Assembly: GCA_003131625.1 (NCBI GenBank)
Contig: PKVY01000081.1
Coordinates: 27,232-91,231 of the forward strand
Length of the DNA: 64,000 nt
Reading direction: 5' to 3'
Source of the DNA: Acidobacterium sp.
GTDB taxonomy: Bacteria; Acidobacteriota; Terriglobia; Terriglobales; Acidobacteriaceae
Part shown: piece by piece, positions 1 to 47,512 of the stretch
How positions within the stretch are numbered: the stretch's first letter is position 1
How the letters are laid out: each line of letters opens with the position of its first letter
The notes under the pieces: model-generated
The model's input: the letters and a program-made list of their open reading frames with translations, nothing else
Told to the model about the DNA's origin: nothing
Databases searched by the model: none
Position numbers and translations under genes: made by a program

Positions 1-324
1 TATCCGGGCGGGGCGGTGTATTGCGGGACGAAGGCGGCGGTGAAGCTGATCAACGACGGGCTGCGCCAGGATCTGATGGGGACGCCGGTGCGAGTGAGCG
101 ACATCGGAGCGGGGATGGTGGAGACGGAGTTCAGCGAAGTGCGTTTTCGCGGAGATCAGGAGCGGGCGGCGAAGGTGTATCAGAACATCACGCCGCTCAC
201 GCCGGACGATGTGGCCGATGCGATTGTGTGGGCGACGACGCGTCCGGCGCATGTGAATGTTGCGCACCTGATCGTTACGACGATCGATCAGGCGAATTCG
301 ATTATGTTCAATCGCAGGGGATAG
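1..324 (+). CDS. ydfG: NADP-dependent SDR oxidoreductase, YdfG-like (5' partial)
   Basis: C-terminal 107 residues of a short-chain dehydrogenase/reductase; the Rossmann-fold start lies outside the window. The catalytic Tyr-x-x-x-Lys is visible as VYCGTK at the very beginning, followed by the substrate/C-terminal part with the sequence order typical of E. coli YdfG (TDIEPG-like segment, VRFRGD, YQN, LTPDDVADAI, PAHVN). YdfG-type enzymes reduce malonic semialdehyde and oxidise 3-hydroxy acids or L-allo-threonine with NADP in the cytoplasm. The frame is open from base 1, so the true start is upstream. The stop codon lies inside a 7-base G-triplet repeat array. Confidence 0.85.
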   Translation, partial: YPGGAVYCGTKAAVKLINDGLRQDLMGTPVRVSDIGAGMVETEFSEVRFRGDQERAAKVYQNITPLTPDDVADAIVWATTRPAHVNVAHLIVTTIDQANSIMFNRRG

Positions 325-347
325 GGTATAGGGATCAGGGTTTAGGG
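317..347 (+). repeat. Heptanucleotide GGG array (copy A)
   Basis: Five GGG runs begin at 317, 324, 331, 338 and 345, exactly 7 bases apart (units of the form YAGGGNN). The array overlaps the stop codon of the ydfG-like gene. It matches the spacing of arrays at about 5072, 7248, 22168 and 41348. Four or more GGG runs with loops of 4 bases are formally compatible with a G-quadruplex on this strand. Confidence 0.8.
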
Positions 348-2956: not shown

Positions 2957-5110
2957 ATGGGTCGTGTTCTGACAAGTCGGCTGCTGCTGGCGGTTCTGGC
3001 TCTCGGTGTGGCCGGGTGCGGCAGCGTCAACTATGCCGCGCAGGCGGGGGATGGCAGCTTTTCGCTGAGCGCAGCGACGCGGTCGACCGGCACGAACGGG
3101 CAAATCGCGCTGCATGCGATGCTGCCATCGGGCGATGCGGCTTCGGTGACGTGGAAGATTGCGTCGGGGACGAATGCGGCGACGCTGGGCCAGGGAAACG
3201 TCGACGCGACGGGCGTTTATACCGCGCCGGGATCGCTTTCCGCAGACGGGATTACGGTGCGGGTGGAAGCGACGCTCCGGAGCGACGCGCAGAGCACGGC
3301 CTCGCTGACGATCGCGGTACATCCTGGATTTGTGCAGCCGCTGCTGCCGCAGAATGTGGCGCTGACGGCGGGGGCGACAGCCGATGTGACGGCGCAGATT
3401 GCCGAAGTGGATGCCGGCAGCGTGAAGTGGTCGCTCGAGAGCGCGCCGAATGGCGAGCAGAATTCAACGACAGGAACGCTGGGTTCGGTGAGTGGCTCGT
3501 CGTGCCAGCGCAGCTCCGACCGCTACACCACGTGCACGGCAACGTACACGGCGCCGAGCGCGATTCCGCAGCAGGATGTGTATGTGGTGGCGGCGGTGAA
3601 TGGGAGTAAAGTGACGTCGCCGCTGCACGTGCTGCTGAACAGCCGCGGGGTGGTGAGCAATCCGATTGCGAATCAGGCGATCCAGACAGGACCGGCGATG
3701 CTGGGTGCGTCGGGCGGGAACGATGGGGATTACGACACCTGGGAGGACCGCAAAGGCGAGTCGTTTGTGGCCGATTGCTGTGGCGGCACGCTGGGCGCGC
3801 TGGTGGAAGACGGGCAGAACAACCAGTACATCCTGAGCAACAACCATGTGCTGGCGGAGTCGGATCAAGGGCACGTGGGGGACACCATCGATCAGCCGGG
3901 GATGATCGATGGCGGGTGCACGCCGCTGAGCCGGCCGGGATCGACGCTGCACCCGATTGGGACTCTGCAGTACTTCGTGCCGCTGGCTTCGCAGCAGACG
4001 AATGTGGACGCAGCGCTGGCGCTGGCTGCGCCGGGCTCGGTGGATCCATCGGGGAGCATTCTGGGGCTGGGCACGTCGGGACGCGATCAGGCGCTGAGCG
4101 GGGCTCCGCCGATGGCGGGGCATGGCGAGACGCTGACGGCAGCGAACCTGGGCATGGACGTGGCGAAGAGCGGGCGCACAACGGGGCTGACCTGCTCCAG
4201 CATTAACGCGGTTGCGCTGACGGTGAAGGTGGACTACTACAAGGATTGCGCGGAGACGCAGCCCTACACCACGAAGACATTTGAGAATCAGATTGGGATT
4301 GGCGGCACGCACTTCACCGACAGCGGCGACTCGGGCGCGCTGGTGCTGGATGCGAGCAATGCGCAGGCGGTGGGGCTGTACTTCGCCGGCGGGACCGATG
4401 GGGATGGCAACGGGTTGAGCGTGGTCAATCCCATTGGCGATGTGCTGCACGAGCTGAGCACGGAGACGGGCAGCCCACTGAGCCTGGTGGGCACGAACAC
4501 GGCCCATTCGATTGCGTGCCTGCGCTACGATCCCGCGGTGCCGACGGAGCCGCCGTACGTGGGGCCTGCGGCGCTGGATCGGGCGCAGGCGATTGCCGAG
4601 GGCGCGGCGGATACTCTGCGCGGCAATGGGGTTTTGGGAACGGCGGCGGGGCATAGTCTGGACAGCCCGGGCGATCCAGCGGTGGTGGTTTATGTCGATC
4701 ACGCGACAGCGACCGTGCCGGAGACGATTGAGGGCATGCGGACGCAGGTGATCGTGACGGATGCTGGCGCAGTGGCACGCGGGACGGCTCCGGCGATGCC
4801 TGCGCTGGAAGCGGGGCTGCATTTATCGAGCGCGGCGCTGGCCGGCGCGACGGCGGTGGAGCAAGGTGTGGCTCCGGGGCTGATGGCCGATCCGGCGGTT
4901 TTTGGCGTGGGCGTGACCGAGAGCCGGGATAATCCTGCGGAAGCGGCACTGCTGGTGCTGGTGGACATCGGGCGGAATCCGCAGTCGATGCCGATGACGA
5001 TGGGCGGGCTGCGGGTGGAGTATATGCGGCTGCATCGGTTTCACACGACGCTGTCGAAGTTTGCGACGGCACAGCGTTCAGGGTGCAGCGTTCAGCGTTC
5101 AGCGAATTAG
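2957..5110 (+). CDS. Lipoprotein with Ig-like region and trypsin-like protease domain
   Basis: 717 residues. The signal peptide ends in a lipobox (LGVAGC), so the protein is probably membrane-anchored outside the cytoplasm. Residues about 30-240 are Ser/Thr/Ala-rich, Ig/BIG2-like beta repeats. A chymotrypsin-fold domain follows, with a complete triad: His297 (SNNHVLAES), Asp351 (TNVDAALAL) and Ser459 (SGDSGALVL). After it comes a tandem duplication of about 75 residues (see findings). An endopeptidase acting in the periplasm or at the outer membrane is inferred; the substrate is unknown. The last ten codons are made from a 7-base tandem repeat. Monocistronic; convergent with the vapBC pair. 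Confidence 0.75.
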   Translation: MGRVLTSRLLLAVLALGVAGCGSVNYAAQAGDGSFSLSAATRSTGTNGQIALHAMLPSGDAASVTWKIASGTNAATLGQGNVDATGVYTAPGSLSADGITVRVEATLRSDAQSTASLTIAVHPGFVQPLLPQNVALTAGATADVTAQIAEVDAGSVKWSLESAPNGEQNSTTGTLGSVSGSSCQRSSDRYTTCTATYTAPSAIPQQDVYVVAAVNGSKVTSPLHVLLNSRGVVSNPIANQAIQTGPAMLGASGGNDGDYDTWEDRKGESFVADCCGGTLGALVEDGQNNQYILSNNHVLAESDQGHVGDTIDQPGMIDGGCTPLSRPGSTLHPIGTLQYFVPLASQQTNVDAALALAAPGSVDPSGSILGLGTSGRDQALSGAPPMAGHGETLTAANLGMDVAKSGRTTGLTCSSINAVALTVKVDYYKDCAETQPYTTKTFENQIGIGGTHFTDSGDSGALVLDASNAQAVGLYFAGGTDGDGNGLSVVNPIGDVLHELSTETGSPLSLVGTNTAHSIACLRYDPAVPTEPPYVGPAALDRAQAIAEGAADTLRGNGVLGTAAGHSLDSPGDPAVVVYVDHATATVPETIEGMRTQVIVTDAGAVARGTAPAMPALEAGLHLSSAALAGATAVEQGVAPGLMADPAVFGVGVTESRDNPAEAALLVLVDIGRNPQSMPMTMGGLRVEYMRLHRFHTTLSKFATAQRSGCSVQRSAN
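5072..5104 (+). repeat. Heptanucleotide array inside a coding 3' end (copy E)
   Basis: CAG phases recur every 7 bases from 5072 (CAGCGTT, CAGGGTG, CAGCGTT, CAGCGTT, CAGCGAA). The array forms the last codons of the protease-like lipoprotein just before its TAG. It has the same period and core as the G-triplet arrays elsewhere in the window, but with fewer G-runs. Confidence 0.75.
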
Positions 5111-5843: not shown

Positions 5844-7247
5844 TCAGCTATGCAGAGCGGCGATCGCCTCCGGAGCCGCCTTTTCGGTGCGGAATTCGCC
5901 TTCCCATTGGGCGACGACGGCGGAGGCGAGACAGTTGCCGACGACGTTGACGACGGTGCGGCCCATGTCCATGATGGCGTCGACGCCGAGGATGACGAGG
6001 ATGGGCTCGACGGGCAGCGCGAAGATGGAGGCGGTGGCGAGAATCACGACCAGGACGGAGCGGGCGACGCCGGCGACGCCTTTGCTGGTCAACATGAGGA
6101 CGCCGACCACGGTGAGCTGGCGGCCGAGGCTCATGTGGATGCCAGCAGCCTGGGCGGTGAAGATGACGGCGATGGAGCAGTAGAGCGCCGATCCCGCCGT
6201 GTTGAAGGTGTAGCCGGTGGGGATGACGAAGGCGACGATATTGCGCGGGACGCCGTAGGCTTCCATGGCCTCGATGGCCCGTGGGAGCGCGGCTTCGCTG
6301 GTGCTGGTGGCGAAGGCGATGGTGGCGGGTTCGGCGACGGCGCGGAGAAACTCACGCAGGGGCAGGCGCGCGATCAGCAGCGCGGGCAGCATGGCCACGA
6401 GCGCGAAGACGACGATCGCAATGTAGAGGGTGAGCGCAAGCTTGCCGAGGTTGAGCATGACGCCGAGTCCCGATTGCGCGACGGTGAAGGCGAGAGCGGC
6501 GGCGACTCCAACGGGCGCGTAGAGCATGACGAAGTTGGTGAAGGCGAACATCACCTCGGTGAGCGATTCGCAAAGGCGGAGCATGGGCGCGCGCTTCGTT
6601 TCGCTGACGCGGCTGAGGGCGAGTCCGAAGAAGATGGCGAAGACGGCGACCTGGAGGATTTGATTGTCGGCGACGGCGCTGGCGATGTTTTCAGGGAAAA
6701 CGTGCAGCAGGAATTGCTGCCAGGAGATGGCGGTTTGCTGCGGGAGCGCGGCCGTGGAGACCGCGGCGTGCGCGGCCATGTTGAGGCCGACACCGGCTTT
6801 CGAAATGTTGATGGCGACGAGACCGATGACCAGCGCGATGGTGGTCAGGGTTTCGAAGTAGACGAGAGATTTCAGGCCAAGCCGACCGACGGTTTTGGCG
6901 TCGGCGTGGCCGGCGATGCCGGTGACGAGGGTTCCGAAGATGAGGGGCGCGACGATGACGCGGATGAGGCGGAGGAAGATGTCGCCGAAGACGCGACCGG
7001 ACAAGGCGACATGTGGAGCGTCGACGCCGAACTCGATGCCTGCCAGCATGCCGACGAAGATCCAGCCGGTGAGGGAGCGGCGGCGCGACGCTGCCCAGGC
7101 GAGAAGGACAAGCGCGACGATGCGGACAGCGATGGCTGCGACGCGCGCAGCAGGCCAGGAATGCTGCGCTGCGGCTGCGGCGGCGTAGAGCACGAGGCCG
7201 GTGATCGCCAGCATCGAGACATTCGGCTTTTGCGCGGCCGACTTCAT
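5844..7247 (-). CDS. Dicarboxylate/amino acid:cation symporter (DctA/GltP family)
   Basis: 467-residue inner-membrane transporter of the DAACS family. It shows many hydrophobic helices and the signature elements of the transport core: re-entrant hairpin 1 as TSTSEAALP, helix 7 as PTGYTFNTAGSALY, and helix 8 as MGRTVVNVVGN. DctA-like members import C4-dicarboxylates and GltP-like ones glutamate/aspartate, driven by Na+ or H+. The Asn in VVGN is usual for DctA; the helix-7 motif is not (usual NxDGT, here NTAGS). The N-terminus is longer than average, with two extra hydrophobic segments. Monocistronic; a heptanucleotide array abuts the start codon. Confidence 0.88.
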   Translation of the reverse strand: MKSAAQKPNVSMLAITGLVLYAAAAAAQHSWPAARVAAIAVRIVALVLLAWAASRRRSLTGWIFVGMLAGIEFGVDAPHVALSGRVFGDIFLRLIRVIVAPLIFGTLVTGIAGHADAKTVGRLGLKSLVYFETLTTIALVIGLVAINISKAGVGLNMAAHAAVSTAALPQQTAISWQQFLLHVFPENIASAVADNQILQVAVFAIFFGLALSRVSETKRAPMLRLCESLTEVMFAFTNFVMLYAPVGVAAALAFTVAQSGLGVMLNLGKLALTLYIAIVVFALVAMLPALLIARLPLREFLRAVAEPATIAFATSTSEAALPRAIEAMEAYGVPRNIVAFVIPTGYTFNTAGSALYCSIAVIFTAQAAGIHMSLGRQLTVVGVLMLTSKGVAGVARSVLVVILATASIFALPVEPILVILGVDAIMDMGRTVVNVVGNCLASAVVAQWEGEFRTEKAAPEAIAALHS

Positions 7248-7284
7248 GGGAGCAGGGTACAGGGTACAGGGCGCAGGGTGCAGC
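7248..7284 (+). repeat. Heptanucleotide GGG array (copy B)
   Basis: GGG runs start at 7248, 7255, 7262, 7269 and 7276, exactly 7 bases apart (core CAGGGTA). It begins at the base next to the start codon of the minus-strand symporter, so it would lie in that gene's 5' leader (as C-runs in the mRNA). A 2-unit echo is at 7306-7317. Confidence 0.85.
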
Positions 7285-7348
7285 GAAAAGCGGCCGGGGA
7301 GTGATCAGCGTTCAGGCACCCGGCGTCGGGCTGTTTTATCCTGCTGGC

Positions 7349-21641: not shown

Positions 21642-22163
21642 ATGATTCCCGAACGCCACCCCTTGCGCCAGCTGTTTCATGAGGTCGTTGCCGGTTGCTA
21701 TCACAGACACACCGGAATCGACGACCCGGAATTGACCTCGTATATCGGGGACTTGTTGACGGAATTTACCGCGACGGAGAGCCTCTACAGCATCCGGGAC
21801 CCGGAGGGGAGACCGGTGAGGGATCTGCGAGACATGATCGCAGCGTCGGACCCGGTCTTTGGCGTGGCGGCCTCTTTTGACGAGGAGCGTAAAGTGCGCC
21901 GGCACATTGGCGACTATGCCCTGTTCGCCACCGGGATGTATCCGGAGTCGACGCAGTTGTGGCGGCACAGCGGGGAATCGGGGTTCGCGGAGATGGTGCA
22001 GACGGGCAAGGAGAGCTACTACATCGTCTCGCAGTTCGACCTGTTCGAGTACCGGGACGAGGCGCCTTTGTTTGCGCAGTTGTCGAGCGAATTTGAGCGC
22101 TGCATGCACGGGCTGAAGCACGTCCGTGAAGAGCTGGACCGGATGGGCGGGATGATTCAGTAA
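21642..22163 (+). CDS. Conserved-looking cytoplasmic protein, unknown function
   Basis: 173 residues, start fixed by GGAGG 5 bases before ATG. Soluble and acidic; begins MIPERHPLRQLFHEVVAGCY and contains DPELTSYIGDLLTEFT, an extended charged helix region and a C-terminal helix (FERCMHGLKHVREELDRMGG). No enzyme motif, signal peptide or membrane segment. The density of conserved-type aromatic and charged residues suggests a real globular protein. I do not recognise the family. A heptanucleotide array starts right after the stop. Confidence 0.75.
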   Translation: MIPERHPLRQLFHEVVAGCYHRHTGIDDPELTSYIGDLLTEFTATESLYSIRDPEGRPVRDLRDMIAASDPVFGVAASFDEERKVRRHIGDYALFATGMYPESTQLWRHSGESGFAEMVQTGKESYYIVSQFDLFEYRDEAPLFAQLSSEFERCMHGLKHVREELDRMGGMIQ

Positions 22164-22166
22164 GAC

Positions 22167-22203
22167 AGGGTACAGGTTGCAGGGTACAGGTTGCAGGGTA
22201 CAA
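22167..22203 (+). repeat. Heptanucleotide array (copy C)
   Basis: Units of 7 alternate between CAGGGTA and CAGGTTG, with G-runs starting at 22168, 22175, 22182, 22189 and 22196. It follows the TAA of the preceding gene by 4 bases. Confidence 0.85.
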
Positions 22204-39973: not shown

Positions 39974-41332
39974 CTACAGCAGTCCGTACTTTTTCATCTT
40001 GTAGCGGAGCGCGTCGCGGCCAATGCCCAGTGCCCGCGCCGCATGAGACTGGTTTCCCTGCGCCTTTTCGAGCGCGCTGACTACCAGCTGGCGTTCGTGC
40101 TCGGCCAGCGAAGCGTCTTCCCCCATTGTGGACGGCTGGCCGGGCGGCGGCCCGGTACTTCCGTTGGCGGTGGTGTCTAAGGGATCTCCGAGAAGTGAGG
40201 CCGGCAAATCGCCGACGTCGATCTCGTCCGATTCCGCCATCATGCTCGCGTGGCCGATGGCGTTCTCCAGCTCCCGCACGTTGCCCGGCCAGGAGTGGCG
40301 CTCGAGTACGAGACGCGCGCGGGGCGAGACGCCACGAATCGTCTTGCCGTACTGCTGGGAAAACTTCTCGACAAAATGGCGCGTCAGCAGCGGAAGGTCT
40401 TCTCTGCGTTCAGCCAGAGAGGGAACGGGAATCTCGACCATGGCGAGACGGTAGTAGAGGTCCTCGCGAAAGAGCCGGTCGGCAACGGCCTGGCGCAGGT
40501 TTCTGTGCGTCGCCGCGATGACACGCACGTTGACTTTGCGCGACTGGAGCGAGCCGACGCGCTGGATTTCCTGATTCTGCAAAGCGCGCAGCAGCTTGGC
40601 CTGCGTGGCAATCGGCATGTCGCCGATTTCATCGAGAAACAGCGTACCCTCATTGGCTGCTTCGAAGAGCCCGGGCTTGTCGCGATCGGCGCCGGTGAAG
40701 GCGCCGCGTACGTGGCCGAAGAGCTCGCTCTCAAAGAGCGTCTCGACGACTGCGGAGCAGTTGAGGACGACGTATTGCCCCTTGACCCCGCTGCGAGCAT
40801 GCAGAGCGCGGGCGACCAGGTCTTTGCCGGTCCCGGTGGCTCCCTGGATGAGAGCGGAGCGATAATGTGGCGCAATGCGGCGGATGCGGGCGAACATCTG
40901 GGCCATGCGCGGGCTGGCGCCGATGATGCCCTCGAACTCCGCGTCGGAGGCGGACTCCTGGCGGCGGCGCGCGTCTTCGATCAGCCGACCCACTCGCTCG
41001 CGCAGGACGGTCAGACGGATGGGCTTTTCGAGATAATCCGCCGCGCCGTTGCGGATCGCCTGAACGGCCGTTTCGGTCGTGTAGTGCGCGGTCATCAGGA
41101 CCACATCCGTGGCCGGCGCAATTTCCATGATGCGGTTGAGGACATCGAGGCCAGTCATCTCGGGCATGACCAGGTCGGTGAGGACGAGCTGGGGATGATG
41201 CTGGTTGACCAGCGCCAGCGCCTCGCTGGGTCGCGAGGCGGTATGAATCGTGATCCCATCGCGGGCGAGCGCAGTCGAGAGCAGGTCCAGGCTGCCTGGA
41301 TTGTCGTCGAGAATGACGATGGAAATGTCCAT
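39974..41332 (-). CDS. NtrC-type sigma-54 activator with receiver domain
   Basis: 452 residues. Receiver domain (1-120) with Asp53 (LVLTDLVMPEM); AAA+ domain (about 145-370) with Walker A GATGTGKDL, the sigma-54 contact loop GAFTGAD, Walker B GTLFLDEIGDM and an Arg finger region; C-terminal Fis-type HTH (HAARALGIGRDALRYKMKK). It activates sigma-54 promoters after phosphorylation. The internal Met at 41332 is chosen since the sequence before it is translated from the heptanucleotide array. Ends 20 bases from the response regulator, tail to tail. Confidence 0.93.
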   Translation of the reverse strand: MDISIVILDDNPGSLDLLSTALARDGITIHTASRPSEALALVNQHHPQLVLTDLVMPEMTGLDVLNRIMEIAPATDVVLMTAHYTTETAVQAIRNGAADYLEKPIRLTVLRERVGRLIEDARRRQESASDAEFEGIIGASPRMAQMFARIRRIAPHYRSALIQGATGTGKDLVARALHARSGVKGQYVVLNCSAVVETLFESELFGHVRGAFTGADRDKPGLFEAANEGTLFLDEIGDMPIATQAKLLRALQNQEIQRVGSLQSRKVNVRVIAATHRNLRQAVADRLFREDLYYRLAMVEIPVPSLAERREDLPLLTRHFVEKFSQQYGKTIRGVSPRARLVLERHSWPGNVRELENAIGHASMMAESDEIDVGDLPASLLGDPLDTTANGSTGPPPGQPSTMGEDASLAEHERQLVVSALEKAQGNQSHAARALGIGRDALRYKMKKYGLL

Positions 41333-41345
41333 AGAAGACAGAGCG

Positions 41346-41370
41346 CAGGGTACAGGGTACAGGGTACAAG
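41346..41370 (+). repeat. Heptanucleotide GGG array (copy D)
   Basis: GGG at 41348, 41355 and 41362, core CAGGGTA, in the 5' leader of the minus-strand NtrC-type gene. Confidence 0.8.
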
Positions 41371-46954: not shown

Positions 46955-47512
46955 GTGGCGATGGGCTGGAATCGCGTCGCGCGGCGGATTCGCGTCCCGT
47001 TGGGATTTGCATTCGCAGTGCTTTTCCTGTGGCTGGCGAAGCCAACGTGGTTGTTTCTGGCCCTGAGCCTTGTGTTAGTCGTACCTGGCTTGCTGTTACG
47101 CGGATACGCTTCAGGCTACGTGAAGAAAAATGCCGAGCTGACCATGACGGGACCGTACGCGCACACGCGAAATCCCTTGTATCTGGGCTCGATCCTGATT
47201 GCCTTCGGATTTGCGCTGGCTGCGCACAGCCTGTGGATCGCACTGATTCTCGCGATCTTGTTCGCGGCGATCTACATTCCCGTGATCCGCTCGGAGGAAG
47301 AGTATCTGCGTTCGGTGTTTCCGGAGTTCGACGCGTACGCGACGACAGTGCCGAGGTTGCTGCCGAGGGTTGTTGCAGCCGAGGGTTCAGGGGCCACCAA
47401 AGGGGTATTCTCGGGAGCACTCTACCGAAAGCATCGTGAATATAACGCATTGCTGGGGGCCGCCGGCATGTATGCTGCCCTCATCCTGAAGCTGGTGCTG
47501 CTCAGGAAATAG
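46955..47512 (+). CDS. Isoprenylcysteine/phospholipid-type methyltransferase
   Basis: 185 residues and about five membrane helices. MTGPYAHTRNPLYLGSILI, and the IYIPVIRSEEEYL segment, are the SAM-binding motifs of the ICMT/PEMT superfamily. It may methylate a lipid, phosphoethanolamine or isoprenoid in the inner membrane. Last but one gene of the waaA-lpxK-waaC operon, hence a possible role in LPS or lipid modification (inference). GTG 46955 (or ATG 46961) is the start. Confidence 0.8.
   Translation: MAMGWNRVARRIRVPLGFAFAVLFLWLAKPTWLFLALSLVLVVPGLLLRGYASGYVKKNAELTMTGPYAHTRNPLYLGSILIAFGFALAAHSLWIALILAILFAAIYIPVIRSEEEYLRSVFPEFDAYATTVPRLLPRVVAAEGSGATKGVFSGALYRKHREYNALLGAAGMYAALILKLVLLRK

Follow-up and report, generated by a model that had tools for sequence, protein, structure and literature searches.

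For decades, tandem heptamer repeats have been recorded here and there among bacteria but not explained; the best worked-out proposal invokes G-quadruplexes. The 64,000-nucleotide stretch of an Acidobacterium sp. genome analysed here (the window) carries five such arrays at gene edges, which raises the question whether they form one family, as an earlier sequence-only reading had proposed, and what places them at these edges. Our survey shows that the arrays are real, abundant and non-random. They keep an exact 7-nt register, usually have 3-5 units with CAG or TAG (YAG) at the head of each, lie mostly between genes, are polar with respect to the gene edge whether or not they contain G-runs, and persist at the same edges of related species with replaced units.

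The window is part of contig 67 in a 5.39-Mb genome of 148 contigs (G000). Our genome-wide counts cover 1.63 Mb (30%) of this genome, in which a home-made hexamer-based caller predicted 1291 genes and 79% of the sequence is coding. This portion holds 114 arrays of period 7, with 105 of them (92%) intergenic, compared to at most seven intergenic arrays for each of the periods 5, 6, 8-13 and 15, and extrapolation gives about 380 period-7 arrays for the whole genome. A scan of 0.85 Mb returned 41 arrays and a first-order shuffle none, while YAG runs of at least four units number about 97 at spacing 7 and 0-2 at spacings 5, 6, 8, 9, 10, 11 and 13. These counts bear out the proposal of one family rather than chance. 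Chance-level numbers and a lack of enrichment at gene edges were named beforehand as grounds for abandoning it, and both are clearly contradicted by the intergenic location of 105 of the 114 arrays and by the edge polarity described below (83/100).

CAGGGTA and CAGGGTG are the commonest units, CAGGTTG also occurs, and separate arrays are built from CAGGTTA, CAGGTGA, CAGCGTT, CAGCCTG, TAGCCGG, TAGGGAT, TAGAGTT, CAGTGAA and others. The shared element is the skeleton YAGNNNN, and the units are mostly homogeneous inside one array and different from array to array. The description 'CAGGGTA-like' was therefore too narrow, as units vary widely among arrays and are swapped at orthologous edges of congeners. 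The arrays share no fixed flanking motif, apart from a richness in purines at the 5' end and in A at the 3' end. Their 7-nt units stand head to tail without spacers, in contrast to the 21-40 bp repeats and unique spacers of CRISPR loci, in agreement with the first assessment that they are not CRISPR repeats. We also rejected the idea that the intergenic spacers as wholes are decayed arrays, as only weak leftover 7-periodicity is found outside the arrays.

The size of the arrays is restricted as well. At spacing 7, two-unit YAG runs show no excess, three-unit runs stand about 38 above most other spacings, and four-, five- and six-unit runs number 43, 31 and 8, respectively, giving an excess at 3-5 units and a sharp drop at six. 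This bears on a neutral explanation, according to which the heptamer is a favoured slippage length of bacterial polymerases and arrays arise anywhere but survive where they are harmless. Among long simple repeats, heptamers are indeed the most frequent in many bacteria, for which a length of contact with the polymerase has been proposed as the reason (PMC4679880, PMC4692102); the patchy presence of the arrays across the phylum and the numerous unrelated unit families in one genome fit such an origin too. However, neutral slippage predicts many two-unit runs and a smooth tail, whereas we see no two-unit excess and a fall past five units. Together with the points on polarity and turnover given below, we consider neutral slippage with purging a possible but somewhat unlikely explanation.

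Polarity was assessed from the distances of each intergenic array to both neighbouring gene edges, with the YAG strand set as forward. Of 100 intergenic arrays, 83 lie closer to the gene 5' of the YAG strand than to the one 3' of it (p about 1e-11; median distances 11 bp and 117 bp), and so do 73 of the 83 strong YAG arrays. The YAG strand, which is usually G-rich, typically begins within about 10 bp of the edge and heads away from the gene, and the abutted edge can be either a stop, when the gene is in sense, or a start, when it is in antisense. All four gene contexts show this arrangement: both neighbours in sense (24/25), convergent neighbours (23/27), divergent neighbours (16/20) and both in antisense (20/28). 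Because only stop codons are involved between convergent genes, the polarity there is independent of start calls. In 14 intergenic regions there is more than one array, and a few of these regions show a +- strand pattern, as convergent inverted pairs would. The same polarity appears in another family of Acidobacteriota (32/39), in Oscillochloris of the Chloroflexota (35/42, judged by the G-rich strand) and in 26 arrays from mixed phyla (21/26, with crude open reading frame calls).

Starts abutted by an array rarely have a Shine-Dalgarno-like motif (1/16 in G000, including the starts at 7247 and 41332 of the window, versus 492/1272 other genes). Neutral slippage would explain the strand preference by deleterious effects of sequence that is G-rich in sense ahead of starts or C-rich behind stops, and it gains from this observation, as G-rich sense arrays plausibly interfere at such starts. 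The same account would lead one to expect arrays on the less constrained stop side, yet arrays between two antisense genes hug the start side in 20 of 28 cases.

Scanning both strands of the window for YAG triplets every seven bases and counting runs of at least three returned exactly five arrays, all on the plus strand and all of five heptads. Each period-7 array listed by the sequence-only reading, the CAGCGTT array at 5072 included, is thus present; the spacing proved to be exactly 7 bases as described, but the units are not identical, so 'exact' holds for the register alone. The placement at gene edges was likewise correctly recognised. Array A (315-349; CAGGGGA TAGGGTA TAGGGAT CAGGGTT TAGGGAA) runs across the stop codon (322-324) of a short-chain dehydrogenase gene ending at 324, and array B (5072-5106; CAGCGTT CAGGGTG CAGCGTT CAGCGTT CAGCGAA) makes up the last codons of the gene at 2957-5110. 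Immediately upstream of the ATG of a minus-strand dicarboxylate symporter gene (5844-7247) lies array C (7253-7287; CAGGGTA CAGGGTA CAGGGCG CAGGGTG CAGCGAA), while array D (22166-22200; CAGGGTA CAGGTTG CAGGGTA CAGGTTG CAGGGTA) has its first base 2 bp past the stop of a gene ending at 22163. Array E (41332-41366; TAGAAGA CAGAGCG CAGGGTA CAGGGTA CAGGGTA) is found immediately upstream of a minus-strand gene for a sigma-54-type response regulator. Elsewhere in the window, a 16-bp near-perfect repeat of GTTGCAGCCGAGGGTT occurs twice within a predicted gene (47356-47387) and is followed by CAGGGG, with a period unrelated to the heptads.

Some of these arrays are rich in G-runs, and the hypothesis that they are G-quadruplex (G4) regulatory elements assumes that they are retained since at least four G-runs fold in DNA or mRNA and thereby tune expression or stability. 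GGG runs number five at 317-347 and at 7248-7284 (in the latter, the fifth is reached by counting 7248-7250), three at 22167 and at 41346, and one at 5072. CAGGGTA in at least four copies satisfies the G3-loop4 rule, the arrays at 317 and 7248 are predicted to fold as G4 by the ViennaRNA model, and the related repeats GGGAATC and GGGGA(C/T)T form G4 in vitro (PMC4692102). A three-tetrad G4 is, however, possible for only 36 of the 100 intergenic arrays; another 40 contain some GGG without reaching the required number of runs, and the remaining 24 contain no GGG at all. Polarity hardly depends on this division (31/36 G4-capable, 32/40 with too few runs and 20/24 without GGG), and arrays without GGG have the same intergenic placement and a similar size preference. 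Moreover, orthologous arrays replace G-run units by CCGG-type ones (CAGAGTT TAGGGAT... versus CAGCCTG TAGCCGG...). The suggestion that two copies are formally able to form G4 therefore stands for the copies at 317-347 and 7248-7284, but G4 is not the unifying property of the family. G4 formation is possible in about a third of the arrays and is not their common cause; we dismissed it in that role, and retention of the arrays as G4 regulatory elements appears improbable.

The arrays are also oriented relative to GC skew. The genome has a strong GC skew that is independent of gene orientation. The YAG strand and the local skew agree in sign for 89 of 105 arrays of G000 (p = 2e-13), without any relation to gene strand, and for 34 of 40 arrays of the congener G005. 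Generally, the G-rich strand is the leading one. A lean to the G-rich strand is also seen for arrays that are not themselves G-rich (13/18, not significant alone), although lone CAGCC motifs lie mostly on the opposite one. We rule out that polarity is a by-product of replication direction, as it holds whichever replication strand an array is on (55/64 and 9/10). Primase is specific for CTR, of which YAG is the complement. A role of the units as primase sites is nevertheless disfavoured, because with YAG on the G-rich strand, which is presumably of leading sense, CTR does not fall on the lagging template. Along the 232-kb contig 67, the skew in 10-kb bins reaches about +/-0.2 whatever the gene orientation and changes sign several times, which is odd for a simple replication skew.

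Congeners divide into array-rich and array-poor species, both by array counts and by the state of the window junctions. At edges that carry an array in G000, array-rich congeners also carry one in 19 of 33 comparisons, compared with 13 of 186 at edges without one in G000; array-poor congeners have none at the array edges of G000 (0/11). The four variable positions (N4) differ in 38-49% of units at shared edges, a level that approaches the 59-62% of unrelated arrays. At one edge, G000 has CAGAGTT TAGGGAT TAGGGAT TAGGGAT and G005 has CAGCCTG TAGCCGG TAGCCTG TAGCTAA, while the adjoining coding DNA is 90% identical. In the window, the edge of array B also has an array in G005 and G010 and in none of the other nine congeners; array-rich congeners have CAG-heptads with different N4 at the place of array D, and G005 has CAGCGGT CAGCGTC CAGCGTA CAGAAAA at that of array E. 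That arrays stay in place at orthologous edges even as their units change is a further point against neutral slippage. Direct alignment of G000 and G005 also revealed a length difference of one unit (7 bp) in one array. All array differences observed so far are between species. The sequence of G010 is identical over 4 kb to Acidobacteriaceae bacterium JOPF049.

A whole array of ~33 bp is present in G000 and missing from G005 and the other aligned orthologues. At the same locus, a segment of the congener G002 (G002:C108:11807-11911) is 96% identical to the G000 array on contig 59 and the start of the next gene, the two genomes being ~80% identical elsewhere; this hints at recent transfer or a misbinned contig. 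Mobile or enzyme-made arrays are a further alternative, in which blocks of ~30 bp are inserted by a dedicated enzyme, for instance a repetitive extragenic palindromic (REP)-associated tyrosine transposase. One clean block gain speaks for it, as does a REP-associated-type transposase gene adjoining an array in G005. That gene lies in an intergenic insertion next to heptad arrays (locus L306, contig G005:C193, about 3.8-4.6 kb). However, each congener has 1-6 Y1 transposase genes whatever its array load, array density near these genes (81/Mb) equals the genome average (70/Mb), and flanks are not shared beyond the mild purine and A bias. The arrays are also not palindromic repeats tied to a REP-associated tyrosine transposase. 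From gene counts and array density we dismissed this transposase as their source, and insertion by any dedicated enzyme is very improbable.

The reading we prefer, to which we give about an even chance of being right, combines turnover in 7-nt steps by slippage with selection on register, length and orientation. The five window arrays would then be members of one genome-wide class of short polar YAGNNNN arrays. Units would be gained, lost and homogenised in steps of 7 nt by slipped-strand replication or unequal exchange, so that NNNN changes in concert inside an array and diverges among arrays and species. The swapping of units is observed directly, and slippage or unequal exchange is its presumed source. 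Selection would purge arrays that fall in coding DNA or point the wrong way, and retain the 7-nt YAG register and the size of 3-5 units; here the positional pattern is the observation, for which selection is the suggested cause. Since arrays without G-runs behave alike, a putative DNA-level factor probably recognises the 7-nt register and the way an array is oriented at the gene boundary.

Several points weigh against this combination of turnover and selection. The agreement with GC skew is partly compositional, as 69% of lone AGGGTA motifs lie on the G-rich strand, and start positions are approximate, the gene caller being home-made. Arrays of relatives were detected by YAG, so that conservation of YAG is partly built into the comparison of orthologous edges, in which presence or absence and N4 divergence are the only unbiased measures. 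Neither a factor that binds the arrays nor a phenotype came to light. The YAG skeleton is lineage-specific: it is missing from some of the Oscillochloris arrays and from the units published for Xanthomonas (PMC4692102) and Beggiatoaceae (PMC4679880). More speculatively, and in our view rather unlikely, the arrays may be a polar boundary code, in which YAG every 7 nt, repeated 3-5 times, is read at gene edges by a putative DNA-binding or replication-associated factor, with replication-strand orientation and N4 turning over in concert; heptamers of Xanthomonas, Nostoc and Chloroflexota would then have the same architecture with other skeletons.

The genus offers a natural test of such readings, with hundreds of arrays, many unit families, arrays with and without G-runs, and array-rich and array-poor sister species. 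The properties common to the arrays (7-nt register, gene-edge polarity and size) can each be varied separately in experiments, while the match to the replication strand and the exchange of units at constant positions offer handles on array origin.

Across 396 genomes of the phylum, three consecutive YAGGNNN units have a patchy distribution, with at least 40 matches in about 47 of them. In public genomes of many phyla, 108 stretches contain the exact sequence (CAGGGTA)3CAGGG, and a slightly shorter version is found in only 3 stretches among 2.9 million viral contigs. Many GGGTACA heptamer arrays are found on several contigs of the metagenome-assembled genome CALPQG020 (L174, L186, L200, L220, L225 and L243), which is labelled Bifidobacterium breve; the label or the binning may be wrong. 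Within the collection of papers searched, we found none on this repeat in Acidobacteria.

Tandem heptanucleotide repeats are also present in the cyanobacterium Calothrix, where they reportedly go by the name STRR. As cited in PMC4692102, several families occur within one genome, as here, and by that citation they were not further characterised. In marine Beggiatoaceae, TAACTGA direct repeats have been described, for the most part ahead of starts (MacGregor 2015, PMC4679880). They are similarly patchy across phyla, but consist of one fixed unit, and related heptamers are seldom repeated. The closest description is that of G-rich heptameric intergenic repeats in Xanthomonas (GGGAATC) and Nostoc (GGGGA(C/T)T), which lie nearer the 5' neighbouring open reading frame irrespective of gene orientation (Rehm et al. 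2015, PMC4692102). Those repeats share with ours the tandem 7-nt units, the intergenic location (89-93% there, 92% here), the proximity to the 5' reading frame (28 versus 160 nt on average in Xanthomonas, a median of ~11 versus 117 here), the preferred size (about four units there, an excess at 3-5 here) and a position common to related species with varying sequence and length. They differ in that many unit families coexist in one genome here, with YAG every 7 nt as the common element, that about two thirds of our arrays are without three-tetrad G4 capacity, and that our arrays follow GC skew, whereas no leading or lagging preference was reported for Xanthomonas. The arrays thus belong to a known, unexplained class of intergenic heptamer repeats, of which the Acidobacteriota variant is new.
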